A stretch of 64,000 nt of DNA from a virus: IMG/VR virus record IMGVR_UViG_3300042475_005534, positions 1 through 64,000 of that record. One strand, given 5' to 3'. The position numbers and the translations under genes are program-made. The stretch's first letter is position 1. The number at the start of each line of letters is the position of its first letter. Below are positions 4,323-58,276 of this stretch, one piece after another. The notes beneath the pieces are model-generated. The model did not search any database, was not told where the DNA came from, and saw only the letters and a list, made by a program, of their open reading frames with translations.

Positions 4323-6476
4323 ATGTGGATAGACAATGATTTCCCGAAAATCCTGGGCGCCGAACTTTATCGACCCCATCCTGCCTACGTGGTAGAGATG
4401 GCGGTTGATCCTGTTGTCGTTCACGATTTCGGGGCACAACCAGGTCAAACGGTCGCCCTAGACCGCTATCGCTACTGGGGAAATCCTGGCACCAAGGACT
4501 CCCGAGAGCGCACTGCTGATCAGACGCTCGGCACGGCGTCGTCTCGCAACATCGTGAAGGACAAGGTCAATGTGACCCTTAAAGAGTTGGCTCAAGCCCT
4601 GACTGGCCTGTTCGCCCCTGAGGCGGACGTACCAGCTCTGGCTATCAGCTCCTTCGCGGCGTAATCCGCGTCGAACACGGAGTGAATTGCTGGAAGCCCT
4701 CCAACCGGTAGACTCTTACGGATGACACTGGGCCGGGTAATCAGCAGCCAAGCCAGCCAGGAATGGCTGGAAGGTTCAACGACTACCGTTGTCGACTCCC
4801 TAGGCAATCAAGTTGTGACACAAGCGTTTTTCATGGGATGTGCTCTTGGTGATGGCTGTCTGAGACGCGATAAGCGTTTCGGAACAGTTACGCTGTACAT
4901 CAGCCGCTGTCAGCGCCAGGCGCCTTACGCGCAATGGCAGCTGGCTCGGCTGAATCAAGAGCTCGGGACTGCTGCATCTCTGCGCTCGTTTATGGACAAA
5001 GGGAAATACCCCGCCGTCCGTTTCGGCGTCAGCAGCAAGCGGCACCTCGCCCCCGTGTATGACGTCTTATATCCAAATGGCGTCAAAAGATTCACCCCTC
5101 AGGCGTTCAGTGACCTCGGCCCCGAGGCGTTGGCACTTCTCTGGATGGACGATGGATCCCTGGAGGTCCGTCGCCGTCAGAGGCCTCGCTCGATCAAGGT
5201 CGAGCGCTCTGGCTGGCTGCCCGTCAGCAAGGATGAAGAGGAGGTTGATGTTGTCGCTTCTTGGATTCACGACGTCACCGGAGCCTCTGGCTCAGTTGTT
5301 CGTCACAAAGGTGGAATGCTGTATCTCCGATGGTTCGCCAAGCAGTTTCGACTACTTGTTGGAGCCATTACTGAGTACATACATCCCTGCCTTGCCTACA
5401 AAGTTGACCTCAGTCGAACGGGCACTGTTGCCCAATGGCTGAGCGAGTCCCAACACCTGCTTGCAGGAAGTGGACGATAAGGCGGCACGAGTGCTCCGCA
5501 CCCGAATCAGGTGGACCTGAAGGGTGATGATATAGTCTGAGCTGCAGCAATGGCAAAGCTGCAGAACTAGGGGATAAAGAGCCTCTAGGGTAACAACACT
5601 GATACCGGCCCCGCCGACCCTTCACAGGCTGACCAGCCCAGCACCTTCAAGGTGGCACGGGAGACGCTGATGACTTCTCAGCGCCTGCTGCTGGATACCC
5701 GCAATATCGCGGCGTTCCACCAGTCGATCGGCTCCTTAACACTTCTTGACGATTACCGCCGTTGGCGTGATCGGGTGTTCGCTGACGAGCTCTTCAAAGC
5801 AGAAGCCAACGGAAGGGCTGATTCCACCCAGGGTGGCTACTTCTTCCCCAAGAACAAGACCAAAACCGGCACCACGGTCGCAAGCTACGGCTCCGGCCAG
5901 TCCGCCAAATTTGGGGTCAAGGACGACCTCCTGGATGTCCTCGAGGGCATGCGTCGGCGCAACGTGCCAACCTTCCCGAATGGGCACTATCGCTGCATCG
6001 CCAGTCCCACTGCGATGAAGCACCTGCGCCAAGACAGCGATTTCCGCGAAATCGCTCGTTACCCCGGCAATGGCATGGCCAATCCGATGCAACCGCATCT
6101 GGCCCCCAATGCCATCAACTACCTGGGTTCTGGCGTTGGCTACGGCCAGGCTGGCTTTGTGGCCGGTCAGCCGGTCATGCCGACTGGATTCCTTTTCGAG
6201 GGGATTCAATGGTTTGAATCGACCAACCTGCCAGACAAGAGCTACACCACCACCATCCCTGTGGCCAGCATCTCTGCTGCTGTCACGGAAGCTGCTCCAA
6301 TCCTGTTCTTCGGGATGCAGGCCGTTGGCGTGGGCATTGGCGGTGACAATGCTCAAATCCTGCTCAACAACAATGATGACTTTGGTCGATTCATCATCAT
6401 GGTGTGGAGCCTCATGGCCGGCTTTGAAGTGCTGAACAAGGACTTCATCACGGTCGCCTACAGCTTCGTTTACTGA
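4323..6476 (+). CDS. Major capsid protein, interrupted by a group I intron
   Basis: Two coding blocks read as one capsid protein if 4589-5590 is removed: exon 1 at 4323-4588 (MWIDNDFPKIL... to VTLKE) and exon 2 at 5591-6476 (NNTDTGPADP... to YSFVY). The proposed join makes KEF-NNTDTGPADP, gives U before the 5' splice site and G at the intron end, and yields 383 residues, a normal capsid size. SIGSLTLLDDYRRWRDRVF and the RYRYWGNPGT segment are typical of cyanophage capsid proteins (recalled, not searched). It forms the icosahedral shell. The start ATG at 4323 follows CGGAG. The next gene follows 15 bp downstream. Exon borders are inferred from intron rules and could shift by a few bases. Confidence 0.8.
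4589..5590 (+). ncRNA. Group I self-splicing intron in the capsid gene
   Basis: Conserved core elements can be read directly. P is at about 4684-4695 (AATTGCTGGAAG) and Q at 4738-4749 (AATCAGCAGCC), with GCTG/CAGC able to pair as P4. R is at 4774-4786 (GTTCAACGACTA) and S near 5528-5540 (GATATAGTC), with GACTA/TAGTC able to form P7. A U precedes the proposed 5' splice site and a G ends the intron. Stops in the capsid frame on both sides of the gap make splicing necessary. About 95 nt between the 5' site and P leave room for P1-P3; I could not assign P1 firmly. The long insertion between R and S carries an endonuclease gene. Confidence 0.78.
4722..5480 (+). CDS. Intron-encoded LAGLIDADG homing endonuclease
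   Basis: A 252-residue frame inside the intron, between core elements R and S. It has FFMGCALGDGCL near residue 38 and LALLWMDDGSLEV near residue 136, the two catalytic helices with both aspartates present, and APVYDVLYPNGVKRFT in between. The expected role is to cut intron-less capsid alleles so that the intron is copied in. The ATG at 4722 overlaps intron elements Q and R; a GTG at 4816 just ahead of the first motif is an alternative start. It resembles the - strand LAGLIDADG protein nearby in layout but not closely in sequence. Confidence 0.8.
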   Translation: MTLGRVISSQASQEWLEGSTTTVVDSLGNQVVTQAFFMGCALGDGCLRRDKRFGTVTLYISRCQRQAPYAQWQLARLNQELGTAASLRSFMDKGKYPAVRFGVSSKRHLAPVYDVLYPNGVKRFTPQAFSDLGPEALALLWMDDGSLEVRRRQRPRSIKVERSGWLPVSKDEEEVDVVASWIHDVTGASGSVVRHKGGMLYLRWFAKQFRLLVGAITEYIHPCLAYKVDLSRTGTVAQWLSESQHLLAGSGR

Positions 6477-12280: not shown

Positions 12281-12310
12281 ACTGGAGGCAAGTGGAGGCA
12301 ACTGGAGGCA
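12281..12310 (+). repeat. Three 10-bp tandem repeats at the integrase start
   Basis: A(C/G)TGGAGGCA is repeated three times head to tail (12281-12290, 12291-12300, 12301-12310) across the proposed GTG start. It could bind a regulator or the integrase, or reflect slippage. Confidence 0.55.
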
Positions 12311-13449
12311 AAAGGGGTCAAAAAAGGGTAAACTTACCCTCGACCCCCCAGCAAAAGGTGGTCGATTTAACAGTGGCCCTCCTGTCGGAAAAGTGCGGTG
12401 GCACCTTTGGCAGGGGATTCCGTCTTAAGGCCATTGGACAGCGCTTGTACGTCCAGGTCAGTGGCCGAAAAATCCCACTGCACCTGGATTTTGAGGCGGG
12501 CCCGGAGGCTGTCCAAAAGCGTGCATGGGACCTCAAGAGCTACCTAAGTAAGCAGGCGGACGGCTTTGACTCGGATGCCTGGAGGGGTGCCTGCGCGGTC
12601 GAAAGGGTAAAAAAGGGTAAGACGAGCCAGTCGAGGCTGGACCTTGATGACGTTGTTGCGCGTTGGAAGAGGCTTAAGCTCGCAGAAGGGATTGCCGAAT
12701 CGACCTTCCAAAGGAATCACCTGCCGATCCTCCAGAGGCTTGATTCGCGTCGACCCCTCAGCGAGGAGTCGCTGCTGAGCGCAATCGAGGGGGCCAAGGT
12801 GGGAACGCTCGCCAGGAGGCGGCTGATCCCCTTCTTGCGCAAAGTGGTCAGGGTGTGCGGAGGGACGTGGAATGCTGACCTCCTGGACCCGCTTCAATCG
12901 GCGGTCAGGGAACCCCAACGGGGGCAACCCTTCTTCCCCGACGAAGAGGTGCTGCGAATTGTGATGCATCCATCTCTGACCATGCCATGGCGACGTGTTG
13001 TTGCTGTCATGGCTGTCTATGGATTGAGGCCCTGGGAAGCCTGGATTGCCGAGCCGTGCAACAAGCGCCCCGGGTGCGCATGGATCAAAGAAGGCAAGAC
13101 AAATAACAGGGGGACAACCAAGCCGCGTCAGGTGCCTCCTTTCCATCCTGAGTGGGTGGAGGATTTTGGGCTGGAACAACTATGGACGCAGCCCCTGCCG
13201 AGCCGAGCAGGAAAAGCAAGATCGGGCTGGAGCGTCAATCAGCGACTGCGCCAGACGGGAATCCTGCAACGCGGAAGTTCCACTGCCTATGGATTTCGGC
13301 ATGCATATGCCAGACGGCTTCATTCCCCCAGGTACCGGGTGACCGATACTCATGCGGCCTTGTTCATGGGCCACACAGTTGCAGTCCACAACCAGGTGTA
13401 CAGAGAGTGGCTCGGAGGGGAGGATCCAATCGGAGTGTACTTTGACTGA
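12292..13449 (+). CDS. int: Tyrosine recombinase (phage integrase)
   Basis: A 385-residue protein with the catalytic residues of tyrosine recombinases: Arg in YGLRPWEAW near residue 245, HxxR-type YGFRHAYARRL near 335, GH in FMGHTVAVHNQ near 362 and Tyr in QVYREWL near 370. Residues 1-190 form the arm/core-binding region. It would join phage and host attachment sites. The start is uncertain: GTG 12292 lies inside tandem repeats and no better ATG is near. Neighbouring repeats at 12141-12255 could be its sites. Confidence 0.85.
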   Translation: MEATGGKRGQKRVNLPSTPQQKVVDLTVALLSEKCGGTFGRGFRLKAIGQRLYVQVSGRKIPLHLDFEAGPEAVQKRAWDLKSYLSKQADGFDSDAWRGACAVERVKKGKTSQSRLDLDDVVARWKRLKLAEGIAESTFQRNHLPILQRLDSRRPLSEESLLSAIEGAKVGTLARRRLIPFLRKVVRVCGGTWNADLLDPLQSAVREPQRGQPFFPDEEVLRIVMHPSLTMPWRRVVAVMAVYGLRPWEAWIAEPCNKRPGCAWIKEGKTNNRGTTKPRQVPPFHPEWVEDFGLEQLWTQPLPSRAGKARSGWSVNQRLRQTGILQRGSSTAYGFRHAYARRLHSPRYRVTDTHAALFMGHTVAVHNQVYREWLGGEDPIGVYFD

Positions 13450-13747: not shown

Positions 13748-15109
13748 ATGGGCAAATACAAGCTCAATCCCACAACCAGTGAGCTGGACATGGTGGGCGG
13801 GGAGGCGGCACAAGGAACCCCCGGCGGCTCCAATACCCAGATCCAATTCAACGATGGTGGCACTTTCGGCGGTGATGTAGATCTCACCTACAACAAGACC
13901 ACCAACCTGCTGACCAGCAAGGGTGACATCCTTCTGGATGATGGTGGGTCTTTTACTACCACGCTTCAGACGGTTACAGCAACAGCGAATCGCACGATTT
14001 CATTCCCTGATGCAACCGGCACGGTGGCCCTGGTTGGTGGCAGCAGCGGCCAGGTCTTGGTTAATACCAATGGTGCTGTTGCGGGGCTAAGCACCCTCAC
14101 CTCTGACGCCTCGGGCAATCTCACGCTAACGGCCCGGCTGATCAATGCTTTCAACAGCCTGGCCAGCGCACCGGCCAAGTTGTTTAGCGGCACCTGGTTC
14201 ACGGGTGGGACATCAACCACCACGAAACCGCATGTGCTGATTGAGCCGGCGGGGACGACTTCGAATAATTTCAGCCCGCTTGGAACTGGGTTTGCGGTTA
14301 ATGCTCCTGCTGGGTTTGGGGGGGATCTGGCGTGGTTTGGGGTGGGGGGGCAATCAAGAATTACTTTGAGCTCAGCAGGCACAGTTGGTTGCGTAAACTT
14401 ACTTGCAACTACTGGTGCATTTGTCAATCTCCAAAACAACGGTGGGGGTTATCAAATAAATTCTAGCGGCAGGATTAACCTTAACGTCATTGGCTCTTTG
14501 TGCTGGGCCCCAGATGTATTTAATGGCAATCCAGATCTAATAGTTTTACGCGGCGCCGCCAACACCCTCGCCCAACGCAACGGCACCAACGCACAAACAA
14601 GTTGGATATTCAACACCTACACCAGTGATACAAACTTTGAGCGAGCAAGGCTGGGGTGGGCCAGCAATGTATTCCTCTTCGGCACAGAGAAAGGCACGGC
14701 AGGCGGCACAGCCCGCGCCATAGAGTTTCAGACCAATGGCATCACCCGCGTGCAGATCAGCCGGGATGGCTTCTACCGCTATAGCCAGCCCGCTCCGGCT
14801 GCTATTAATTCCACGGCGACTTTGACGGTTGCCAATCTGCAGGCGGGGATCATCACGACGACCACTGCCGCAGCGGTGGACCTGACGCTGCCCACAGGAA
14901 CCAACGTGGAGGGTGGTTTTGCGGTGAACAGCAACGACCTCACGATGGAGTGGAGCGTGATCAACACCGGCAGCAATAGCGCCACGGTGCTGGCTGCCAC
15001 GGATCACACGCTGGTGGGTTCTGGGGTGGTGGCTGCTGGCAGTTCCGGGCGCTTTGCCACCCGGCGAGCGGCGGCGAATACCTACGTCACCTATCGCCTA
15101 GGCAGCTAA
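13748..15109 (+). CDS. Tail fibre / adhesin
   Basis: A 453-residue Gly/Thr/Asn/Ser-rich protein. The N-terminus (GTPGGSNTQIQFNDGGTFGG) is a fibre-start motif frequent in phages; TISFPDATGTVALVGG follows near residue 85. The distal part (FATRRAAANTYVTYRLGS at the end) is variable in look. The region around 14380-14650 is AT-richer than its flanks, as expected for swapped receptor-binding domains. It precedes two small adhesin-operon genes. Confidence 0.75.
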   Translation: MGKYKLNPTTSELDMVGGEAAQGTPGGSNTQIQFNDGGTFGGDVDLTYNKTTNLLTSKGDILLDDGGSFTTTLQTVTATANRTISFPDATGTVALVGGSSGQVLVNTNGAVAGLSTLTSDASGNLTLTARLINAFNSLASAPAKLFSGTWFTGGTSTTTKPHVLIEPAGTTSNNFSPLGTGFAVNAPAGFGGDLAWFGVGGQSRITLSSAGTVGCVNLLATTGAFVNLQNNGGGYQINSSGRINLNVIGSLCWAPDVFNGNPDLIVLRGAANTLAQRNGTNAQTSWIFNTYTSDTNFERARLGWASNVFLFGTEKGTAGGTARAIEFQTNGITRVQISRDGFYRYSQPAPAAINSTATLTVANLQAGIITTTTAAAVDLTLPTGTNVEGGFAVNSNDLTMEWSVINTGSNSATVLAATDHTLVGSGVVAAGSSGRFATRRAAANTYVTYRLGS

Positions 15110-15111
15110 TC

Positions 15112-15510
15112 ATGAACTCCTTAACCATCACCATTTCTGACCTCCGCGCCATCGACGGCTGGGTCGAGGCCAGCAACAGGGCAGGCGTAACACCTGAGGC
15201 CATGGCCCTGGAGATGCTCCAGCATCAGGGGTTGCGGTATGCGGATCTGTTCAAGATTGGGCTGTTGACCAGTGCCGCATTTGTTCAGCGGTTCACGGCG
15301 GCAGAGTATGGCGCCATCAGGGCAGCGGCGACCCAATCGGCTGAGGTGGCCAGCTTGATTGGGGAGTTGGTGGATTCCCCCATGGTGGTGCTGACGGACC
15401 CGCGCATTGATCCAGGGTTGGCAATGCTCACAGCTGCTGGGCTGCTGGCCCAGGGCAGGGCAGCGGAAATCATGGCGTGGGAGCACCCCAGCCCGCAGGA
15501 GGAAGTATGA
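15112..15510 (+). CDS. Fibre-operon helical protein
   Basis: A 132-residue protein two bases after the fibre gene. Helical and alanine-rich (TAAEYGAIRAAATQSAEVASL), no cysteines. Its stop overlaps the ATG of the next gene (ATGA). Such proteins in cyanophage fibre operons may be assembly chaperones (inference from position only). Confidence 0.55.
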   Translation: MNSLTITISDLRAIDGWVEASNRAGVTPEAMALEMLQHQGLRYADLFKIGLLTSAAFVQRFTAAEYGAIRAAATQSAEVASLIGELVDSPMVVLTDPRIDPGLAMLTAAGLLAQGRAAEIMAWEHPSPQEEV

Positions 15511-16202
15511 CCCTGATCCTGAAGAAGGGGTTGAGGTTGCGTAGGGGCGGGCCATCCAGTTTGCTGATTACACCAAGACAGCCCGCACCTGCCGTCATTG
15601 GTGAGCCCTTTGGGGGTGGCTTTTTCGCTGGTTATATCAGCCATACCGCAGACGGAAATCCAACCCATGCTTTGATCGTGGCTCCAAGGGTGACAGGCGC
15701 CACTGGTACGGGGTACACGCTGACGGACAATATCGCTTGGAAGACCGCAAACAGTACTTCCTTGGGCGCTACCAGCACATTTGATGGCGCTGCCAACGCA
15801 GCCGCAATAGCAACCGCTGGAATCGCCGCTCATCCAGGGGCTCAATTCTGCGCCAATCTCAGCATTGGTGGTTTCACAGACTGGTATCTACCAGCAATAC
15901 TGGAGTTAGACATCGCTTATTTTAACCTAAAGCCCACTACTGCAAGCAACCTTACACAGTGGGGGATCAATGATTACTCTGTACCTAAACGAGCAGCAAA
16001 TTTTATCCAAACTCGACCTGAGCAAACGCCTGTGGCCATGTTTAATACATCAACACAATCGTTTTTGATTGGCAACCATTGGTCATCTACTCAAGCCAAT
16101 GAGACTGAGGCTTGGCTTCTTCGCTTTGAAAATGGCAATCGGTTTACCAGCAGTAAAACAGGTGCTTTTCTTGTCCGCGCCTTCCGCCGGATAGCACTAT
16201 GA
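15507..16202 (+). CDS. DUF1566 lectin-like adhesin tip
   Basis: A 231-residue protein. The C-terminal 120 residues match DUF1566 (Lcl C-terminal-like): GGFTDWYLPAILELD, NHWSSTQANETEAWLLRF, and an end with VRAFRR. This fold is C-type-lectin-like and is used by secreted adhesins; some DGR target proteins belong to it (family knowledge). As last large gene of the fibre operon it probably binds the host surface. ATG 15507 overlaps the previous stop. The stretch 15880-16150 is AT-richer than the surroundings. Confidence 0.65.
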   Translation: MTLILKKGLRLRRGGPSSLLITPRQPAPAVIGEPFGGGFFAGYISHTADGNPTHALIVAPRVTGATGTGYTLTDNIAWKTANSTSLGATSTFDGAANAAAIATAGIAAHPGAQFCANLSIGGFTDWYLPAILELDIAYFNLKPTTASNLTQWGINDYSVPKRAANFIQTRPEQTPVAMFNTSTQSFLIGNHWSSTQANETEAWLLRFENGNRFTSSKTGAFLVRAFRRIAL

Positions 16203-16273
16203 CCACCTCCCGCCGCGAGCACATCCTGCAGCCCCTGCTGGCCACCCTCAACGGCCTGGCGGGGGTGGGTTAG
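16199..16273 (+). pseudogene. Truncated tail-protein remnant (24 codons)
   Basis: An ATG overlapping the previous stop (ATGA) opens 24 codons reading MTTSRREHILQPLLATLNG and a few more before TAG. This matches the usual N-terminus of small phage tail-terminator-like proteins, but the body is missing and the opposite strand carries an HTH gene instead. Likely a remnant of a deletion. Confidence 0.45.
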
Positions 16274-16497
16274 ACCCAACCACGGGCATTCATCAGGCGC
16301 ACCACGGCTGGGAGATTGATTTCGATGGTTGCCCTCTGCCTGGCAGTGACCCAGCGCCAGTGGACCCCCTCTATCCAGTGCTCCTGCTCCAGCCGTCTGC
16401 GCAGAGTGCGTTCACTGCAGCCCAGGACAGCAGCGGCGGCCCGGGTCTTGAACCAGTCCCGCCTGGCGATAGGGACGGAAATCTTTACGGAGGACAT
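16270..16497 (-). CDS. Excisionase-like helix-turn-helix protein
   Basis: A 75-residue basic protein (start ATG 16497). RAAAAVLGCSERTLRRRL is a helix-turn-helix, followed by EGVHWRWV, as in small winged-helix excisionases and MerR-like Xis proteins. It could help the integrase in excision or act as a small regulator. Its stop overlaps the end of the remnant on the other strand by four bases. Confidence 0.55.
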   Translation of the reverse strand: MSSVKISVPIARRDWFKTRAAAAVLGCSERTLRRRLEQEHWIEGVHWRWVTARQRATIEINLPAVVRLMNARGWV

Positions 16498-16639
16498 GGA
16501 GCCAGCACCCGCGCTCCTGCGATGGGTTGTTGGCATAGGGGTCGAGGTGGGACTGGCGGAGCGTAAGACACATCATGCGCAAAAGCAAGATGAGTGAAGT
16601 TGCGCAGGCTTTAGATTGGGTCTAGGGCAGGAGCACTGA

Positions 16640-17011
16640 ATGACTGGTGAGCTGACGATGGAGGAGGAGTTCATCCTGCGTCGCATGAGGGACAGCCTGC
16701 ATCAAGCATCCCAAGCTGAGCTGCTGGATCTGGTGATCACTGCTCAGGCCAAGATCTTCTCCCTGGCCCACCACTTCCGAGAAGCCGCTGCAGAGGCGGG
16801 GATTGCCACGCAAATCGAGATTGTCGACGACTTCGATTGCGGTCTTCCTGATTCAGGGGAGGAGCTAGTACAGGTCTTCGGGGGGAGGCCCACCACAGAA
16901 GAAGTGGAGCGCTACGCAGAAGAGCGCATTCAAGCTTTCCAGGCTTTCCACGGCATGGACATTGACTTCAGTGATATCGCCATGGAAGAAGACGGAGATT
17001 GGGATCTATGA
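16640..17011 (+). CDS. NblA-like small protein
   Basis: A 123-residue protein, AGGAG before the ATG. Residues 5-50 (LTMEEEFILRRMRDSLHQAS, then QAELLDLV) align without gaps with the NblA pattern: EEEF, an Arg three residues later, and Ser 13 residues after the Phe. NblA proteins direct phycobilisome breakdown and occur in some cyanophages (family knowledge). The acidic C-terminal 70 residues are extra, so this is a variant or a look-alike. Its stop overlaps the endolysin ATG. Confidence 0.45.
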   Translation: MTGELTMEEEFILRRMRDSLHQASQAELLDLVITAQAKIFSLAHHFREAAAEAGIATQIEIVDDFDCGLPDSGEELVQVFGGRPTTEEVERYAEERIQAFQAFHGMDIDFSDIAMEEDGDWDL

Positions 17012-18291
17012 CAACAATTCAAGAGCGCGCCCTTCTCAATACCATCAGGCACGCAGAAGGCACCTGGCTGGGCGGGGACCCCAGCGGGTACCAGGTGATG
17101 TTCGGGGGAGGCAAGACACCGTCACTAGAGCGACACCCTGACCGAGTCATCAGAACTAGCGGCTACAGCAGTGCCGCTGCGGGTGCCTACCAGTTCATGC
17201 CGGGTACCTGGGGCCCACTGCAACAGCGCCTAGGGCTCAAGGATTTTGGGCCTCAGTCTCAAGACTTCGCAGCACTTGAGCTGGTCAGGCAGCGTGGCGC
17301 CCGGGACCTGATCAACAAAGAAGGCTTCACTCCGGATGTGGCCGCCAAGCTGGCTCCAGAGTGGGCATCGTTCCCGACGAGGAAAGGCACGAGCTACTAC
17401 GGGCAGCCTGTCAAGCAGTATCCAGAGCTCAAGAAGTTCTACGACTCACAGATTGCAGCTCTCTCTAAAGGCGGGGGCGCCCCGGCCCCGGCCCCAGTGA
17501 CGCCATCCCCTGACCCACCGGAAAACGACAGCTTTACGCGCACCCTGCTGAAATCCATGCTGGGCGGCGGTGATGACGACATGGCCTCGCCTGAGTCGAT
17601 CACATCATTGAGTGCCCCCCGGAATCGACAGGTCTCACCGTTCACGAGTGCCCTACTGGGCGGCGGTGTTGCTGGAGCCTTTGCTCCACTTGTTGGCGCC
17701 ATCGCTGGGCTGAACGGGAGAGGCGGAGCAGAGCGCTCCCAGAGCGCCGGGCAAGAAGCCCCCAGGATGGCCGCAGGAGGATTCTTTCCGTCGCTGGTGC
17801 AGGCCATCCTGTCGGATTCGCCAGAGGCCTCGCCAGCCCCTGCCGCCGCTGCCGCTGCCACGGGAGCGCCTCCAGCGGTGGCACGCGCCAGTGGAGGGGG
17901 CGGGGCGACAGTGAAAATCACAGACGTCGGGAAGATGCTTCAGGGCGCAGGACTCAGGGTGAGAGAGCATCCAGACTTTGGCGGAGTGGGCGGACACTCA
18001 AAGGGTTCCCTGCACTACGACGGCAAAGCCCTCGACATCACAGACTGGCAGGATCCAGGGGAATCCAAAAACTCCTGGCTCCCAAGGAAGGAGTGGTACG
18101 CGCAACAGGTCCAAAACGCCCTGGCTGGTACCGGAGCCGAAGTCTTTGGCCCCCACAATGATCCCAGGGGTCACGGAACACATATCCACCTGGGCCTTCC
18201 GAGCGGGAGCCTTTCATCGGAAGCCGCTGCACGATTGGTGGAATTACGACAGCAATCGATCAAGCGATTCCCGCTCCGTTGGAAGGGCTAA
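17008..18291 (+). CDS. Two-domain endolysin: lysozyme-like plus M15-type peptidase
   Basis: A 427-residue protein. Residues 1-150 are a phage muramidase/transglycosylase domain (LNTIRHAEGT, SSAAAGAYQFMPGTW, FAALELVRQRGA). Residues 160-300 are a Pro/Ala/Gly-rich linker. The C-terminal 120 residues hold GGHSKGSLHYDGKALDIT and HGTHIHLG, the His/Asp/His zinc set of M15-like peptidases. Together they would cut glycan and peptide bonds of the wall at lysis. ATG 17008 overlaps the previous stop. A holin-like gene follows 390 bp on. No signal peptide, so a holin would be needed. Confidence 0.8.
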   Translation: MTTIQERALLNTIRHAEGTWLGGDPSGYQVMFGGGKTPSLERHPDRVIRTSGYSSAAAGAYQFMPGTWGPLQQRLGLKDFGPQSQDFAALELVRQRGARDLINKEGFTPDVAAKLAPEWASFPTRKGTSYYGQPVKQYPELKKFYDSQIAALSKGGGAPAPAPVTPSPDPPENDSFTRTLLKSMLGGGDDDMASPESITSLSAPRNRQVSPFTSALLGGGVAGAFAPLVGAIAGLNGRGGAERSQSAGQEAPRMAAGGFFPSLVQAILSDSPEASPAPAAAAAATGAPPAVARASGGGGATVKITDVGKMLQGAGLRVREHPDFGGVGGHSKGSLHYDGKALDITDWQDPGESKNSWLPRKEWYAQQVQNALAGTGAEVFGPHNDPRGHGTHIHLGLPSGSLSSEAAARLVELRQQSIKRFPLRWKG

Positions 18292-18621
18292 TCACCGATC
18301 GTCCCCGCTGCCGCTGAGCACGCCCCTGTGTTGCCGGTTGGCCAGTTTGTCTAGGTTGTTGGCGGCGACATCCCCGAGGTCGATGTCCAGCTCATTGGCC
18401 AACTGCGCCACGTACCAAAGCACATCACCCAGCTCCAGAGTGATGGCCGTGATGGCGGCGCTATCAAAGTGGCCCTCCTTGTCACGAATCACCTTTTTGA
18501 CTTTCTCTGCCACCTCCCCTGATTCACCGCAGAGGCCCAGGGTGGGGTAGATGGGGTTGCTGCCGCAGTCGGGATAGATCGCGAACTGGGAGGAGCGAAT
18601 CTGGTACTCGCGGAGATCCAT
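18292..18621 (-). CDS. mazG: MazG-like nucleotide pyrophosphohydrolase
   Basis: A 109-residue protein. LGLCGESGEVAEKVKKVIRD and, 25 residues on, LELGDVLWYVAQLANEL give the ExxE...ExxD metal-binding set of the MazG/all-alpha NTP pyrophosphatases. MazG is common in cyanophages, where it is thought to shape the nucleotide or alarmone pool (family knowledge). Start ATG 18621 fits the family's short N-terminus; upstream in-frame codons overlap a + strand gene. Convergent with the endolysin, ending one base after it. Confidence 0.85.
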   Translation of the reverse strand: MDLREYQIRSSQFAIYPDCGSNPIYPTLGLCGESGEVAEKVKKVIRDKEGHFDSAAITAITLELGDVLWYVAQLANELDIDLGDVAANNLDKLANRQHRGVLSGSGDDR

Positions 18622-32330: not shown

Positions 32331-34016
32331 TCACACTCTTGCGAGTACAACCTTCTCCGGCTGGTGCTGATACTTGCCATCGCGGTCCTCGTAGGTGACA
32401 TCACAGGGATCCCCCTCGAAAAACAGGAGTTGACAGATCCCTTCATTGGCGTAGATGCGGCAGTCAGCCCCTGAGGAGTTGCTGAACTCCAGGGTGAGGT
32501 GGCCTTCCCAGCCGGCCTCGGCGGGAGTTGTGTTGAGAATGATACCGCAGTTCTTGACAAAGACTCCCGCAGACAGGGCAAAGTTTCCTGTCCTGGGAGC
32601 GGCGAGGCAGTAGGTTGGATGAAGACCAGGAACGCGGCGCACATTGCAAATCTTATGGTTTGCAGCCAGCGTTCCTGCCCGGAAGCCTTCGATGATGCTG
32701 TGGAACCGGCGAAAAGCGGAGCGATCTACGCTCAGCATCCTGGCAGCTCCACGAATGGAACCCGTAGCCAGTAGTGCGTTCGTCAGACTTTCAGAAGTGA
32801 CATCTTTTCGGCGGCGAAGCGCTCCCGCGCCAGCGTGTGCCACGGCCGACTGTTTGGCCCTGGCGTCTGGCTGAAGCCAGCGCTTCTTTCTTGCCTTAGC
32901 AAGGTTTTGACGGCTCTCTTCCGAGTCGAGATAAGGACGTCGTCCCTCTAGGGCCTTGCGCTTGCTCTCGTCACAGTGCAAGGCATTCAAGATTTTTTTC
33001 CGGTGTTGCGAATCCAACGCAAACTTCTCCGCGCTTTTCCGGCCACCATGCAAATGCCTGAGATCTTCCTGGTTGTGAAGTCGCGTGTGCTGCGCTTGCG
33101 TCAACAATGCAAGGTTGTCCGGGTGATTGTTTGTCTTAATTCCGTCTCGATGATGGACGTGCAGATCTTCGCAGTCAAGGATATCCCTGGCGACCATCCG
33201 GTGAACCGATGTGCGTGCACCTCGCCTGTCACTTCCTTTGGAGGCCAGCGCCGAAGCGTGAACCGGATCGTAAACGCCGGGATAGCCGTGGTCCTCCCAG
33301 TCGTAGAAAGCGTGCAGGGAATCCCCAGGCTGGAGGTGCTGGGCCTCTTTCTCAGTACCGTCTCGAAGCAGGAATCCGTGGTCAGGCGTGCAATGAATCA
33401 ATTCTCCGTTGTCCAGTTCAACTTCAAGAAGTTGGCTTTCCTCGATAAGACGCGGCGCAACCAATTCCTGAGCGATGATTCGACCGTCCAGGACTCCGAA
33501 GCCGTACAACCTTTCTCCAGCCTTTGCTTTGTCGATCAATTCCAGAAAGGTGAAATCTCCGTCAACAAGGCGAACCTTGGTGTCACCACTGAAGCAACGC
33601 GCATAAGTGCTCTTGCCCAGGCAGATGACCGTGACATTGGCTGGGACCTTGAGCTTTTCCAGGGCGACCCCGAGTCCGTAGGAGTGGGCCGGGAGAATGA
33701 AGTAGGCCCCATCACTGTCTGAGTGCAGGGCAGCAGGCTCCAGGTTGTCGGGGTTGAACCGCTTGGGGTCCATCACCGTGCCGGGTATATGGCGGAAGAT
33801 CAGGAACTCCTTGGGCGAGAGACGCAGGTCATAGCCGTAGGAGCTGCAGCCGTAGGACAGGGCCGGGACGGTGTCGATCTCCCAGACGACCTTGTCCAGT
33901 ATGGGATCAAAGGAGTAGGGATGCCTCAGCTCAATGCGGCGTACCAGCTCCGGAGTGAACGGTTCGATCATCCCAGCAGAGGCCTGCTGCTTAATCCAGC
34001 GGTCGTTCTTCAGCAT
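32331..34016 (-). CDS. dcd: dCTP deaminase precursor with an intein
   Basis: A 561-residue precursor. N-extein (residues 1-140) and C-extein (last 72) join to a 212-residue dCTP deaminase: [36 protein letters not shown], then [15 protein letters not shown] and [13 protein letters not shown]. The enzyme turns dCTP into dUTP, feeding ThyX after dUTP hydrolysis. The intein sits directly after the KSTYAR motif of the active site, a typical conserved insertion point. Start ATG 34016 fits the family; upstream codons to 34070 are probably untranslated. Confidence 0.85.
32550..33596 (-). other. Intein with HNH endonuclease domain in dCTP deaminase
   Basis: A 349-residue insertion starting Cys ([13 protein letters not shown], block A) and ending FVKN before the extein Cys. 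[16 protein letters not shown] is block B (TxxH). The middle has [20 protein letters not shown] and HTRLHNQ, an HNH homing domain, followed by a KSAEKF...RKKI region like nuclease-associated DNA-binding repeats. The end lacks the usual His before Asn (VKN rather than VHN), a known tolerated variation. It should splice itself out. Confidence 0.82.
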
Positions 34017-34020
34017 GGGT

Positions 34021-34233
34021 TTAGGGCACGTAGCCCATGACGATGCCCAGGGGAACGACCCCGATCCCAATAGCCCGGATCACAACCACGCCGCCCAGGG
34101 GGTCGAACGACGAGCCAGCAAGCTTGATGATGTTGCTGGTCCAGCCGTAGGAGCTACCGCCCACGATGGCAGCGAAGAGTAAGCCAACACCGATGCTCTG
34201 AAGGCGAAAGACAATCGAAGGACCGCGGGCCAT
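34021..34233 (-). CDS. Small membrane protein
   Basis: A 70-residue protein from ATG 34233 with two hydrophobic stretches ([18 protein letters not shown] and [20 protein letters not shown]). Four bases upstream of the dCTP deaminase start, so co-transcribed with it. Function unknown; leader TTTCACCCC precedes the ATG. Confidence 0.55.
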
Positions 34234-38733: not shown

Positions 38734-38923
38734 GGTAATCGCAGGAAGAACAGTGGATTTTGTATTGAAGAGGGTTGGTTAAGAGTGCTCCGCTTGGGTC
38801 GGAGTCATATAGCTCCTCCCCGCAGACTGGGCAAGCGATTCCATTGAGACGCGGGCTACTAAGCAAAAAGGCCTTTGCTTGGTGCTTGCGATTGTGGTCA
38901 TATAGTGAGATGAGGTCAGTCAC
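38717..38923 (-). CDS. Small zinc-ribbon protein
   Basis: A 68-residue protein with CPVCGEEL near residue 31 and HCSSCDYHG near 57, two CxxC knuckles of a zinc ribbon. Overlaps the subtilase stop by four bases. Probably a small nucleic-acid- or protein-binding factor. Confidence 0.6.
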   Translation of the reverse strand: MTDLISLYDHNRKHQAKAFLLSSPRLNGIACPVCGEELYDSDPSGALLTNPLQYKIHCSSCDYHGQRF

Positions 38924-41142
38924 AGCTCTCGTAGCGATGAATATGGGTTGGGGGTGAATTGTTGGAATGGGTGATCAGCCGTAGCAAAACCGGTCTGGCC
39001 ATACAACTTCAGATCTGCGATTTGCATCATGTTGCCATCCGCTCTAAGAGTTGGAAAGACTAGGCGATAACTATTAAATGCTGACAGCCCATCCATTGAC
39101 ACCAATGGTGCTTCCGTATGTCGCGCAGTGGGCAGCTGCAGCCCACCTGAGATGAGAAGATCCCAGGATCCGTTGCGCTGTCCATAGATCTGGTAAGAGG
39201 CAGGATCCCTGCCGGGCATGTCATTTGCTGTAGTTATCCTGAACCCAGTGAGACGGGTTGCTGTTGAATATGAGAACTCAACACCTGACCGAGACCCCCC
39301 GATATTCAGGTACTTTGTTAAGGGATCATTATCAAAGGCGTTTTCTACCTGCTCGAACACCGGGGAAGCAGTGAAACCATCAAGATCCACCGCAGTGGTT
39401 CTTGATGGCGAGGGGAGAAGCCCTGGTGGCGCAGGGGCTGGCTTCGGCGGAACTGGCTCAGGGGCTGGTGTTGGAGGTGCTGGTGCCGGTGGCACAGGAG
39501 CAGGAGCAGGAGCAGGTGGCGCTGGAGTGGGAGCTGGCGAGCTGGATTGAGTGCCAAAAAGCTTAAGCTCGGCGATCTGCACGAACCAGTCTTGAACACG
39601 CACAGCCGTAAAGATGAGGCGGTACTGCGTGAACAGGGACAGTTCGGGGAGCGTGACTGGTGCTGAGTCGGTCTGCCTGGCCTGTGGGAGCGACAGTGCA
39701 CCCGAGCTGAGTATCTGCCAAGAGGAACCGTCGTTGGAACCCTCAAGGCGGTAGGCGGTCGGATCGTACTGGGGATTGTCGTGAGCTGAGGTGACGATGA
39801 ACGACGTCAGGCGGTAGGGAACATCGTATGTAAATGAGACGCCCGTGGTTCCGTTTCTTCCGTGGTTGTTGCGGTGTGTGGAACTTCTGTTGTTGTCGAA
39901 CGCATTGCCCACCTGCCAGCCACTGTCTACCAAGCCGTTGACGAAACCAGAGTTCAGGGGCGCGGGCAGGAGGTACGGGGTGGACGACGGCGGGGCTGGT
40001 GTTGGAGGTGCTGGTGCCGGTGGTGCAGGAGTAGGAGCAGGAGTGGGAGCAGGGGGTGGGGTTGGCACCGGAGCCGGTCTTGGAGGTACCGGGGCCGGTG
40101 TTGGAGCTGGAAAAACGCCAGTTGGTGGGGTTGCAAGGAATGCCGCTACATTCAGCCGACCGCCTGTCGCCGTTTTGCCCGCCAACGAGGCTGTTGGAGT
40201 GGTACTCGCTAGCAACGCTTCTCGAATCTGTTGAGCACTGGCGGTGGGATACTTACTGGCATAAAGTGCAATGGCTCCCGTAACATGCGGCGCCGCCATA
40301 GAACTGCCGCTCAGGGTTGTGTAATTGTTCCCCGGCAGGGTGGAGTAAATACCAGACGCGGGTGCGCCAAGGTCTACCGTTGTCCTTCCATAATTAAATT
40401 GTTGATTCCCGTTGCTATCTAGTCCTGTTACAGAGATGACGGCTTCGTAACCGGCTCTCTGCAAGGTGCTTATCCCAGATGGGTAGGAGACATGAACATC
40501 ACTGTCCCGACCGGCATTGCCGGCAGCCGCGACGAAGAGAATGCCCGCTTGCGCGGCTCTAACCATGGCGTCTTCCATCCATGGCCCAGTTCCACCTCCC
40601 CATGAGTTGTTACTGGCTACGATGTTGAGACCATGACGACGCTTTAGATCCGTCAGGTAATCCAGGGCCAGCTTGACTCCATAGGTCGTTCCGCCCAAAT
40701 TCCCCAGGAACTTGAGGGGGATAATCTTCACGTTCCAGGCCACTCCAGCGACCCCTTCGCCATTGCCGCCAACAGCCCCGATAATTCCGGCTACATGGGT
40801 GCCGTGGCCGTCTTGGTGACCATCGAAAGTCGTATTGTCATTGCGGTCGAAATCCCAGCCGCGAATATCATCAATGTAGCCGTTTCCATCATTATCAATT
40901 CCGTCTCCCTCTATTTCGAAGGGATTGCGCCAGATATTCGCAGCCAAATCTGGGTGGGTATGATCAATTCCCGTATCAATAATTCCGATGTAAACATCCC
41001 TCGAACCCGTGTGGCCCGTTTTCCATGCTGCTTCGGCATTGGAGCCGAAGCCAGGGCCCATGCCCCATAAGTGGCCATTGGTGAGGGCGGGGTCATTGAT
41101 GGTGACGTTGCTCGTGAAGAGCTGATCCTGTAGCGGTTTCAT
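38920..41142 (-). CDS. Subtilisin-like serine protease with two discoidin-type domains
   Basis: A 740-residue protein. Residues 1-345 are an S8 peptidase with Asp56 (IIDTGIDHTHPDL), His113 (DGHGTHVAG), Asn209 (AAAGNAG) and Ser281 (GSSMAAPHVTG). IEGDGIDNDGNGYIDD near 78 is a calcium-type loop. Two Pro/Ala/Thr-rich linkers (about 345-395 and 548-595) separate two galactose-binding-like domains ending IAELKLFG and IADLKLYG. No signal peptide and no long propeptide are visible. Such enzymes are rare in phages. It could act on host surface proteins or in virion maturation. ATGA overlap with the upstream gene. Confidence 0.85.
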   Translation of the reverse strand: MKPLQDQLFTSNVTINDPALTNGHLWGMGPGFGSNAEAAWKTGHTGSRDVYIGIIDTGIDHTHPDLAANIWRNPFEIEGDGIDNDGNGYIDDIRGWDFDRNDNTTFDGHQDGHGTHVAGIIGAVGGNGEGVAGVAWNVKIIPLKFLGNLGGTTYGVKLALDYLTDLKRRHGLNIVASNNSWGGGTGPWMEDAMVRAAQAGILFVAAAGNAGRDSDVHVSYPSGISTLQRAGYEAVISVTGLDSNGNQQFNYGRTTVDLGAPASGIYSTLPGNNYTTLSGSSMAAPHVTGAIALYASKYPTASAQQIREALLASTTPTASLAGKTATGGRLNVAAFLATPPTGVFPAPTPAPVPPRPAPVPTPPPAPTPAPTPAPPAPAPPTPAPPSSTPYLLPAPLNSGFVNGLVDSGWQVGNAFDNNRSSTHRNNHGRNGTTGVSFTYDVPYRLTSFIVTSAHDNPQYDPTAYRLEGSNDGSSWQILSSGALSLPQARQTDSAPVTLPELSLFTQYRLIFTAVRVQDWFVQIAELKLFGTQSSSPAPTPAPPAPAPAPVPPAPAPPTPAPEPVPPKPAPAPPGLLPSPSRTTAVDLDGFTASPVFEQVENAFDNDPLTKYLNIGGSRSGVEFSYSTATRLTGFRITTANDMPGRDPASYQIYGQRNGSWDLLISGGLQLPTARHTEAPLVSMDGLSAFNSYRLVFPTLRADGNMMQIADLKLYGQTGFATADHPFQQFTPNPYSSLREL

Positions 41143-41591: not shown

Positions 41592-41754
41592 CGAATGCTC
41601 GGCAGAATTGGAGTGATGCTCGGTGCACAGGCTCGAGCTGTTTCCAGGCTTGATTGACCTGGCTTACACCGTAGCGCTCAATCAGTTGGCGCACATCCGA
41701 CTTCTGTACCGCCTCCTGCAGAAGCTGCAGAAGGCCTGGGTCTGAGAACGACAT
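41380..41754 (-). CDS. Hypothetical protein overlapping two neighbours
   Basis: A 124-residue frame with AGGAG eight bases before ATG 41754. Residues 1-60 (LLQLLQEAVQKSDVRQLIER) look genuine; the rest, which overlaps the next gene by 212 bp, is Ser/Gly/Pro-rich and may be read only if no frameshift occurs near 41590. Confidence 0.45.
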   Translation of the reverse strand: MSFSDPGLLQLLQEAVQKSDVRQLIERYGVSQVNQAWKQLEPVHRASLQFCRAFDGVLVQRLSDTPEGSSRDRAPSDPHGDHFGAHASSGDEAIATEAAGAALGVEPPNRRLHLQWQQLPLVPD

Positions 41755-42071: not shown

Positions 42072-42347
42072 ATGACGACTGGATCAGGCATGGAGATGGA
42101 GGCAACCCTTGAGGCCCATTTCCAGTACAGGCAACTGGAGCTTCTTGTTGAGAAGGCAGGGCTCAAGGATCTCAAGGAGTTGTGCCTATTGCTGGGAAAG
42201 CACGCGCTGGTTGCACAACCAGCCGCCCTCCGGTGGGCAGCGATGGAGGCGGCCAGGGCCTTATCCCTTGGGATGCGCAATGACGCAGATCCCGGGGAGG
42301 CCCTCCTCCAGCAACTGCAGGAAAACAGCCAGCCGCCCCACGAGTGA
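42072..42347 (+). CDS. Second NblA-like helical protein
   Basis: A 91-residue protein (ATG 42072; 42090 also in frame). EAHFQYRQLELLVEKAGLKD followed by LKELCLLL has the same Phe-x-x-Arg spacing and helix pattern as the NblA-like protein at 16.6 kb. A general small helical hairpin is the alternative. A lone + gene between - operons. Confidence 0.4.
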   Translation: MTTGSGMEMEATLEAHFQYRQLELLVEKAGLKDLKELCLLLGKHALVAQPAALRWAAMEAARALSLGMRNDADPGEALLQQLQENSQPPHE

Positions 42348-43078: not shown

Positions 43079-43747
43079 TTAGTTCCAGTTGGGATGAATG
43101 TCGTGATCGGCCTCAAAAGAGGCCTGGTCGTAGCCGACTGCCGCAGTACCCGTAGCGGGATCACTGCTGCCGCCGCGCCCTCTGTGGACTCGGAAGGAGC
43201 GAACCTTAACCTCACAGTAGGGCTCATTGGTAGAGGATGTCATCTGGGAGAACGATCCAGAGACCTCCACCAGTGCACCGATATCCACCCTGGAGAAGCG
43301 CTCCTGGGTGGTACCGAATACCCGACAACCATACCAATCGGTCTGCTCAATCGGGTCTCCCCCTTGCGGATTGGGGAGGTACCGATTCAGGGCTACAGAG
43401 CGCCGGGTTGATTTCCCGGCTGGCTTGGGTTCGCTACCGATGCGACCGACAAGAGTGACCTCGTTGAGGTACTGCTCGTCAGTAGCAGGGCAACAGACGA
43501 AAGCCGTAATGACAGGCTGGCTGGAGCCTTCCATGAGCAGGACATCGCCGGAGACCAGGATGCGATCACCGACGATCTTCTGTGCAAGGAGCCCAGCTGA
43601 GGGCCCATCCTTGAAGGCCCTCACGTCCACAAGGACGGGGGTCTGGCCTGAGGGGATCTCCCCAGTGGCGCAGAGAAATTCACGACTGCCGTCTATAACG
43701 GACTGGGGGTTCCCGGTCAGGACAACGACAGCTGCCGCATAGGTCAA
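43079..43747 (-). CDS. ssb: Single-stranded DNA-binding protein, tandem OB folds
   Basis: The second half (YLNEVTLVGRIGSEPKPAGK, WYGCRVFGTTQERFSRVDIG, GALVEVSGSFSQ) is a standard SSB OB fold. The first 90 residues (VVVLTGNPQSVIDG, ILVSGDVLLMEG) look like a second OB fold. The C-terminus lacks the acidic PF tip. The open frame reaches 43798, but bases 43771-43798 read as a promoter, so the TTG at 43747 is preferred as start; the tract has no ATG. It protects single strands during replication. Confidence 0.75.
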   Translation of the reverse strand: MTYAAAVVVLTGNPQSVIDGSREFLCATGEIPSGQTPVLVDVRAFKDGPSAGLLAQKIVGDRILVSGDVLLMEGSSQPVITAFVCCPATDEQYLNEVTLVGRIGSEPKPAGKSTRRSVALNRYLPNPQGGDPIEQTDWYGCRVFGTTQERFSRVDIGALVEVSGSFSQMTSSTNEPYCEVKVRSFRVHRGRGGSSDPATGTAAVGYDQASFEADHDIHPNWN

Positions 43748-43770
43748 GCGAATTCGAGCAGGGCGCAACC

Positions 43771-43798
43771 AAGATATCCAAAATGCGCGAAGTGTCAA
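43771..43798 (-). promoter_or_regulatory. Sigma70-type promoter for ssb
   Basis: On the minus strand TTGACA (43798-43793), 16 nt, TATCTT (43776-43771). The -35 is inside CTTGACAC, the same octamer that is repeated at 26.1-26.5 kb, which may link the two by a shared factor. Confidence 0.45.
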
Positions 43799-57395: not shown

Positions 57396-57827
57396 TCAGG
57401 AGGGCGGAAGACAGATCACACGAAAGCCGATGTAGTCGTCGGTATAGCCGGGCAGGTCAATGCCGCGGTGAGCCAAGCGGCGGTCTGAGGGGAGACTGTC
57501 CCAGCCGCCGCCGCGCAATACCGCCCGGCATGGTGCTTCTTCCTGGGGGAGGCACACCACGCGAAACCCGATGACGTCGTTGGCATAGCCGGGCTGGTCG
57601 CGGTAGCGGTAGACCGAGCGGCAGTTCCTGGGGAAGTTGAACCAGGAGCCACCGCGCATTGACAAGTCGCAGCGTGCGGTGGAGGCCCCTGGAGGGACGC
57701 ACACCACGCGGAAACCGATGTTGTCGATTGGCTCGCCGGGTTCTCCGGGAAAGCGATGGGCAGAGCGGCAATGCCTAAGGAAGAAGTCCCAGGGACCGCC
57801 GCGTAACGCCCGATTGGGGATCGTCAT
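57396..57827 (-). CDS. Three tandem FGE C-terminal modules (array B)
   Basis: A 143-residue protein, ATG 57827 overlapping the stop of the previous module gene. It is three copies of the end of an FGE-sulfatase domain: RGGPWDFFLRHCRSAHR...NIGFRVVCVP (residues 1-51), RGGSWFNFPRNCRSVYR...IGFRVVCLP (52-100), RGGGWDSLPSDRRLAHR...GFRVICLP (101-143). In the second, all 12 codons at the variable sites end in C (TTC AAC TTC, GTC TAC, TAC CGC GAC, GCC AAC GAC GTC). Such half-domains should not fold as a full lectin fold alone. Confidence 0.7.
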   Translation of the reverse strand: MTIPNRALRGGPWDFFLRHCRSAHRFPGEPGEPIDNIGFRVVCVPPGASTARCDLSMRGGSWFNFPRNCRSVYRYRDQPGYANDVIGFRVVCLPQEEAPCRAVLRGGGWDSLPSDRRLAHRGIDLPGYTDDYIGFRVICLPPS

Positions 57828-58276
57828 GGTGTCATCCCCCGCGGAAGACAGATCACACGAAAGCCGAGGTCGTAGTCGGCATAGTCGGGCGAATGGGAAA
57901 TGCCGCGACAGGTCGAGCGGCACCAGGGGTAGCTGAGCTGGGCGTGGGAGCCGCCGCGCATGGTTACCTGCGTGGGCTTGACCCCCAGAGGGAGGCACAC
58001 CACGCGGAAGCCCAAGCCGCTGCTGGCATAGCCGGGCTGGAAGCGTCCGAAGCCGCGGCAGGCCGAGCGGCAGAACCCGGGGTTGTTGCCCCAGGAGCCA
58101 CCGCGCAGTGGCGGTAGCATCCGAGGTGGTGCCACCTCCCGAGGGAGGCACACCACGCGGAAACCGACGAGATCGTCTTGGTAGTGCGGAGCGGCGCGTC
58201 GGTAGGACAAGCGTAAATACGCCTGTTGTTCCGTCCTGAAAAACCAAGTACCGCCGCGTTGCACTTGATACGTCAT
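57824..58276 (-). CDS. Three tandem FGE C-terminal modules (array A)
   Basis: A 150-residue protein, ATG 58276 overlapping the upstream stop. Modules: residues 1-50 (RGGTWFFRTEQQAYLRLSYR, with CRSA lost), 51-101 (RGGSWGNNPGFCRSACRGFG), 102-150 (RGGSHAQLSYPWCRSTCRG). Each ends GFRVVCLP or GFRVICLP. Variable codons are mainly of NNC form. Framework DNA between modules (around GGGAGGCACACCACGCGG) is nearly identical, so recombination between modules is easy. Confidence 0.7.
   Translation of the reverse strand: MTYQVQRGGTWFFRTEQQAYLRLSYRRAAPHYQDDLVGFRVVCLPREVAPPRMLPPLRGGSWGNNPGFCRSACRGFGRFQPGYASSGLGFRVVCLPLGVKPTQVTMRGGSHAQLSYPWCRSTCRGISHSPDYADYDLGFRVICLPRGMTP

Follow-up and report, generated by a model that had tools for sequence, protein, structure and literature searches.

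A small protein whose gene overlaps an endolysin gene in the virus record IMGVR_UViG_3300042475_005534 is, judged by its sequence, a divergent NblA-type protein. This protein, ORF1, was studied in a window comprising 64,000 nucleotides (positions 1 to 64,000 of the record), in which a second and more distantly NblA-like frame, ORF2, is located at 42.1 kb. In the phage lineage to which Synechococcus phage S-EIV1 belongs, genes for NblA-like proteins are repeatedly found next to genes for wall hydrolases. The features on which the analysis is based are as follows.

16270..16536, minus strand: excisionase-like HTH gene, divergent from ORF1 (phrog_539, E 5.5e-8)
16640..17011, plus strand: ORF1, putative NblA-type protein of 123 aa, ATG to TGA, opening with MTGELTMEEEFILRRMRDS
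16649..16771, plus strand: NblA-like part of ORF1, residues 4-44 with N-terminal LTMEEEF..R, gap-free alignment
16772..17008, plus strand: C-terminal extension of ORF1, residues 45-123, with an acidic end; residues 45-64 align with the tail of the LYS family (see below)
17008..18291, plus strand: endolysin (phrog_90, E 2.1e-31; searched as 17014-18288)
42072..42347, plus strand: ORF2, second NblA-like frame, 91 aa (cyanopodovirus NblA profile, E 1.8e-4)
43079..43798, minus strand: SSB-domain gene, preceding the ORF2 gap by two genes along the minus-strand gene direction (PF00436, E 1.9e-7)

Kinship of ORF1 with NblA and its linkage to the endolysin gene

A gap-free NblA pattern at 16640-17011 had been described in an earlier sequence-only reading, and the alignments bear this out. 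Cyanophage NblA could be aligned without gaps to residues 4-44 of ORF1, and the residues L5, E8, F11, R14 and S24 have the same spacing as L9, E12, F15, R18 and S28 of host NblA in the host alignment. The helix motif LxxExxFxxR is complete in ORF1 (LTMEEEFILR), and L5, E8 and F11 fall into invariant columns in an alignment of 17 NblA-type proteins. Four helix-2 residues that are invariant in 12 host NblAs (Y, K, W and G) were not matched in the alignments by either ORF1 or ORF2. Among 24736 Pfam families, NblA (PF04485) was the top match of ORF1 (E 0.0091), spanning profile columns 1-31 of 50, and its 16.9 bits did not reach the curated cut-off of 25 bits. ORF1 is the sole PF04485 match within the 88,123-base record (E 4e-4). 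PHROGs held no family for ORF1 or ORF2 and none that was convincing for the relatives of both. With full-length ORF1, five loci were detected in viral contigs, each 96-100% identical, and of 166 pattern matches in genome contigs none was confirmed.

Relatives of ORF1 were identified in cyanopodoviruses. By tblastn against 50,697 phage records, ORF1 matched seven records (E 0.03-0.1), six of which are Synechococcus phages or cyanophages and one an uncultured Autographiviridae. A small frame positioned after, or overlapping, the end of an exonuclease frame accounts for the match in S-TIP37, S-RIP2 and MedDCM S28-C3, and two of these three frames pass the NblA cut-off of Pfam. The three nblA-type frames carry no annotation (S-TIP37 ~2498-2683, S-RIP2 ~2001-2186 and MedDCM S28-C3 1947-2186; L007, L008 and L009). 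Cyanopodovirus NblAs are the sequences closest to ORF1, with 31-35% identity to those of S-TIP37, S-RIP2 and MedDCM S28-C3 and at most 49% over 41 residues among 75 viral loci. They differ in being exonuclease-adjacent in the three phages, whereas ORF1 is located at an endolysin and has a longer tail.

The 75 loci were obtained by searching viral contigs with an alignment of ORF1 and the phage frames, which yielded 161 relatives, 80 of which were kept: five at 96-100% to ORF1 and 75 cyanopodovirus-type NblAs. A cyanopodovirus NblA profile was made from 23 non-redundant sequences of the 75, with ORF1 excluded; its members had been fetched by similarity to ORF1, which favours the score of ORF1 but not that of ORF2. 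Among the 1317 frames of the window, ORF1 ranked first (E 2.6e-10, 36.3 bits) and ORF2 second (E 1.8e-4, 17.6 bits), and the third frame reached only E 2.2. The sequence-only reading had proposed a second NblA-like frame at 42072-42347; this frame reads open throughout, has the F-x-x-R motif and with its second rank of 1317 stands up to the search. In 150 shuffled frame sets the top score was 12.2 bits with the cyanopodovirus profile and 12.8 bits with a host plus viral profile, and none of the 150 sets matched the cyanopodovirus-profile scores of ORF1 and ORF2. By hhalign, the cyanopodovirus-type alignment matched ORF1 with E 8.9e-10 and ORF2 with E 1.9e-4 (probability 47%), and a profile to which 30 host NblAs and the NblA of Ma-LMM01 had been added gave E 1.8e-7 for ORF1 and E 5.1e-5 for ORF2. 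With a narrow profile of the 30 host NblAs alone, ORF1 ranked first but at E 4.6, and ORF2 was absent at E <= 5. BLASTP detected no similarity between ORF1 and ORF2. As the host-only profile gives weak scores and likeness to ORF1 was the criterion for the 75 loci, it is the viral branch that connects ORF1 and ORF2 to NblA. Profiles, relatives and synteny together uphold the NblA kinship of ORF1 that had been proposed earlier.

Searched against the PDB, the cyanopodovirus NblA profile gave six matches, of which four were NblA (E 0.03-0.41) and two were uteroglobin constructs (E 0.066, at rank 2, and E 0.23); with ORF1 directly, no NblA was among four weak matches. A comparison of folds, which the earlier reading had set as the test that could refute it, was performed with AlphaFold single-chain models of low confidence, which were too weak to use. 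The models contain helices at 7-20, 25-38 and 40-52 in ORF1 (mean pLDDT 55) and at 13-28, 31-43 and 50-65 in ORF2 (mean pLDDT 66), and with these low-confidence models Foldseek matches at E 0.001 were absent and the matches listed did not include NblA. In a tree that FastTree built from 66 short sequences on ~50 columns, with modest supports, ORF1 grouped with the cyanopodovirus NblAs (support 0.81), a set that was itself fetched with ORF1.

At the downstream end, the stop codon TGA of ORF1 (17009-17011) overlaps the start codon ATG of the next gene (17008-17010) in an ATGA junction. The downstream protein belongs to the PHROG endolysin family phrog_90, and the coupling to an endolysin gene that had been read from the sequence was thereby confirmed. 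Because a divergent excisionase-like gene lies 103 bases off and ORF1 overlaps the endolysin gene, ORF1 appears to be the leading gene of the endolysin transcription unit, as far as a unit can be read from gene order, and the 103-base gap (16537-16639) is likely to be its control region. A sigma-70 scan of 16537-16639 gave no sites. Promoter-like sites numbered 0 and 1 (shuffle means 0.3 and 0.4) and terminator-like sites 1 and 3 (shuffle means 2.0 and 1.3); the promoter and terminator scans were set aside as evidence.

Among the five near relatives, L002 is identical throughout the shared stretch, and in L003-L006 the DNA aligns at 94-96% from ~16200 onward. The interval 13.8-16.2 kb of the window gave no alignment in three of L003-L006 and three pieces of 79-90% in L006. 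This interval (13800-16200), with tail-fibre-like and Lcl_C-domain genes, is a swapped module that is unaligned or piecemeal in four of the five near relatives. Directly behind the endolysin gene, a MazG pyrophosphohydrolase is encoded on the opposite strand (18292-18621, minus; PF03819, E 4.1e-12). An integrase-like gene is present at 12292-13446 (plus; phrog_1, E 8.6e-7; no Pfam match at E 0.01), and together with the excisionase-like gene it suggests that the phage is temperate or was so formerly.

Phage lineage and NblA-like genes beside wall hydrolases

The terminase of the record matched that of Synechococcus phage S-EIV1 (47.6%, with 98% of the query covered, 528 bits), and the other records listed reached at most 91 bits. 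For the frame at 5652-6473 S-EIV1 was the only match (59%), and a 761-aa frame behind the terminase gene matched S-EIV1 with 42% over 758 aa. When S-EIV1 frames of at least 100 aa (stop to stop, both strands) were compared by blastp at E 1e-8, 15 matched the record of the window, 18-21 matched each of four further records and none matched 50 kb of Ma-LMM01, which served as control. By its shared terminase and conserved genes, the record is a member of the S-EIV1 lineage. S-EIV1 was isolated on Synechococcus sp. PCCC-A2c and originates from a lake in the high Arctic, and this lineage supports the earlier assumption of a cyanobacterial host. The cyanophage marker psbA was detected in none of 28 records carrying the LYS family, and the host is therefore assigned through the S-EIV1 lineage. 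The 245 records for the endolysin are mostly of Escherichia phages, and the best-ranked isolate among them was Synechococcus phage S-T4 (E 1e-13); Synechococcus phage S-LBS1 (E 1e-26) led for the primase, ahead of a Marinobacter phage and then cyanophage S-2L. PF04485 was found at E 0.1 in none of five picocyanobacterial genomes (L093, L122, L100, L098 and L154), as compared with 77 of 194 genomes at E 0.001 in a sample of the phylum. The window further encodes a dCTP deaminase with intein-splicing and HNH endonuclease domains (32331-34070, minus; PF22769, PF14890 and PF13392) and, at 57396-58247 (minus), a protein with a C-terminal FGE-sulfatase domain (PF03781, E 6e-12).

A scan with the endolysin of the window gave 68 loci, five being of the same kind as the window. 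Of the remaining 63 endolysin loci, at least 14 have directly upstream a frame for a small protein whose core reads GLTLEDEFVLTRIR...CRERAYKTVM.EVG; this family is designated LYS. Scanning with LYS yielded 92 relatives, and 80 were kept. A same-strand window-type endolysin follows directly in 48 of these 80 loci, four loci are cut short and 28 are without it; among the 68 LYS loci on contigs outside the endolysin scan, 36 precede a window-type endolysin. Ten of the remaining 28 loci were listed, and a large frame is located downstream in nine of them and none at L337. Eight of these nine downstream frames were subjected to Pfam analysis, and seven were SLT transglycosylases and one (L349) an M23 peptidase.

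NblA was the best Pfam family in five of seven LYS members (E 0.0075-0.041, columns 2-47 of 50, sub-threshold), and a Pfam NblA match was absent in the other two. In searches of ten LYS members at a search size of 1317 sequences, the host profile gave E values from 0.0043 at best to 9 at worst and the cyanopodovirus profile 0.26 or worse. By hhalign, LYS matched residues 4-64 of ORF1 (probability 84%, E 7e-6), the cyanopodovirus NblAs over 15 columns only (E 6.8e-4) and ORF2 with E 0.41. Within helix 2 of LYS an RE..YK pattern lines up with RE..YK of the hosts. In the PDB, NblA was third of three matches of the LYS profile (E 0.9), and for one LYS member nothing in the phage records matched at E 0.1. 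The LYS profile was also run against 386 cyanobacterial genomes, where one weak match, interrupted by stops, was rejected.

S-EIV1 itself encodes an NblA-like protein, AHV82245.1, directly after its lysozyme gene (Phage_lysozyme). AHV82245.1 was the top of 1405 frames with the host profile (E 0.0072) and with the combined profile (E 0.0049), and was not listed at E <= 3 in these 1405 frames by the LYS and cyanopodovirus profiles. Its best Pfam family is NblA (E 0.014, sub-threshold, columns 2-48). In the FastTree, AHV82245.1 was placed with the host NblAs (0.79) and LYS stood apart (0.99). The placements of ORF1, S-EIV1 and LYS suggest that NblAs of different branches came to be encoded next to different wall hydrolases.

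ORF2 and a second NblA-type family

ORF2 is a lone plus-strand frame among minus-strand genes, in a region that is marked by the SSB gene as one of replication genes. Its motif, ATLEAHFQYR, corresponds to LxxExxFxxR without the leading Leu. Relatives of ORF1 and ORF2 occur together in two viral contigs (3300036719_006244 and 3300033981_002454), and a 64-kb record with ORF2 (G006), possibly a fragment, gave no PF04485 match. In 201 Cyanobium-family genomes, the ORF2 alignment (A4) gave four weak matches (E 0.003-0.009). A subtilase-family protease that also has an F5/8 type C domain is encoded about 0.9 kb away from ORF2 (38920-41142, minus).

In three of four long LYS records (G635, G637 and G654, not G646) another NblA-type frame was found near an exonuclease gene, and a scan with these frames gave 37 loci of a second NblA-type family. 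Within 1.5 kb on either side, the longest neighbouring frames run antiparallel to the gene in 34 of the 37 loci, so that the gene is a lone reversed one among replication genes; the exceptions are L407 and L408, with a longer same-strand frame on one side, and L427, which is cut on one side. With the cyanopodovirus NblA profile, 12 of 19 non-redundant members had E values of at most 0.0061; the lowest value of the host profile for these 19 was 0.15. Five members were examined with Pfam: L407 passed the NblA cut-off (29.7 bits, E 8.9e-7), NblA was the best family of L416 (0.0015) and L435 (0.0041) and the second of L442 (0.072), and L413 had no NblA match. The family was present in 19 of the 28 LYS records (E 3.1e-17 or better), which had been picked from the 80 mostly by length. 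NblA-type genes of the S-EIV1 lineage are mostly below the Pfam threshold, often occur in two copies, and one copy is tied to a hydrolase gene.

The record of the window contains no second-family gene. ORF2 was rejected as an orthologue of this family (hhalign E 0.13), and the neighbours do not align either. Support was likewise lacking for AHV82171.1, a lone reversed gene near SSB, as the S-EIV1 equivalent of ORF2 (phmmer E 0.12, 25 sequences). Given its lone reversed placement near the SSB gene and the lack of alignment to the relatives, ORF2 is called an analogue by position. By profile, ORF2 is a candidate distant NblA-like frame and a positional analogue of the second family, a weaker case than ORF1.

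Possible function and biological meaning

NblA binds ClpC via an N-terminal-proximal motif and phycobiliproteins via a C-terminal-proximal motif, according to PMC4103541, and its role as a ClpC adaptor is treated in passages of a review (PMC7966870). Expression of phage nblA is accompanied by loss of phycobilin (nblA passages of PMC9602691), and nblA of Ma-LMM01 is expressed early (passages of PMC4103541). On balance, we consider it somewhat probable that ORF1 and, less certainly, ORF2 are phage NblA-type proteolysis adaptors by which host ClpC degrades phycobilisomes. Each would fold as an NblA helical hairpin, the conserved N-terminal helix of which would dock on the host ClpC chaperone, while the variable second helix and tail would hold phycobiliproteins for degradation by ClpCP. 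The retained N-terminal motif and the loss of a host-type helix 2 in ORF1 and ORF2 would point to ClpC adaptors with altered cargo contact, and phycobilisomes would still be the likeliest cargo, because the tested phage NblAs in the cited work act on phycobilisomes. From gene position, ORF2 would act early and ORF1 late, ORF1 being made with the endolysin through the overlapping start and stop codons. Antenna protein would be converted to amino acids and light absorption would drop in the final phase before lysis.

Whether ORF2 is a gene at all was weighed separately. As a chance open frame opposite minus-strand genes, which we hold to be unlikely, it would explain that Pfam NblA gave no match at E 1 and that ORF2 is limited to three viral contigs (each 96-98% identical), with none found in phage records. 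Substitutions in ORF2 among the three relatives are mainly at third positions, which does not prove translation because the overlapping minus-strand frame shares them. A chance frame is, however, at odds with E 1.8e-4 for a profile that was not selected for ORF2, a score matched by no shuffled set, and with its position in a gap of ~330 bases, provided that the gene at 41678 begins at its own ATG; the lone reversed placement is the same as in 34 of 37 second-family loci.

ORF1 and its positional relatives could instead be proteins of a lysis or virion module (a partner, chaperone or inhibitor of the hydrolase) with a hairpin that merely resembles NblA. This we regard as rather unlikely, even though the hydrolase linkage is tight (48 of 80 LYS loci before a window-type endolysin and, of the others, all eight tested before SLT or M23), the NblA matches of LYS are sub-threshold in five of seven members and lacking in two, and the low-confidence models were too weak for a comparison of folds. 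It is opposed by separate members giving NblA as the best of 24736 Pfam families, by the grouping of ORF1 with cyanopodovirus NblAs (themselves fetched by likeness to ORF1), and by a second NblA-type gene that is distant from the hydrolase in the same records and hits the Pfam cut-off in one of five. NblA-derived ClpC adaptors with a changed cargo, be it some further host protein or, for timed turnover, the wall hydrolase that the phage itself encodes, would account for a retained N-terminal motif without the host-invariant helix-2 residues in both frames, for the long ORF1 extension with its acidic end, which has a likeness in the copy of S-EIV1, and for the overlap with the hydrolase gene; LYS relatives, however, retain RE..YK in helix 2 in line with the hosts, and we judge such a change of cargo quite improbable.

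Seen as phage NblA-type adaptors, ORF1 and ORF2 deviate from the known proteins in several respects. With cyanobacterial NblA (PF04485; PDB 1ojh, 3cs5, 2qdo, 2q8v) ORF1 shares L-x-x-E-x-x-F-x-x-R and the Ser spacing, whereas the cyanobacterial chains have 54-65 aa compared with 123 aa in ORF1 and 91 aa in ORF2, the helix-2 Y, K, W and G are unmatched and the Pfam match is sub-threshold (ORF1) or lacking (ORF2). NblA of the Microcystis phage Ma-LMM01 (YP_851019.1) is likewise a cyanophage NblA, but its gene overlaps nrdA and it groups with host NblAs in the tree. AHV82245.1, annotated as a hypothetical protein, is like ORF1 in lineage, NblA likeness, adjacency to a wall-hydrolase gene (in S-EIV1 a lysozyme gene) and acidic tail, and differs in lying downstream of the lysozyme gene, whereas ORF1 lies upstream of its hydrolase gene, and in grouping with host NblAs. 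More speculatively, and with considerable doubt, cyanophages of the S-EIV1 lineage may run a two-stage NblA programme, early at replication genes and late beside whichever wall hydrolase is in use, drawn from at least three NblA branches; the late adaptor would tie shredding by ClpC to lysis, its cargo possibly being other than phycobilisomes and including the phage's own hydrolase.

Phage NblA as such is already known, marine podoviruses included (nblA passages of PMC9602691), and these passages mention no linkage of nblA to an endolysin. Table 2 of PMC5332604 gives hli and ptoX, and no nblA, for the S-EIV1 group. If the proteins described here are functional, destruction of the antenna may be timed with the bursting of the cell, and counts of nblA-bearing viruses obtained by standard annotation would be too low.
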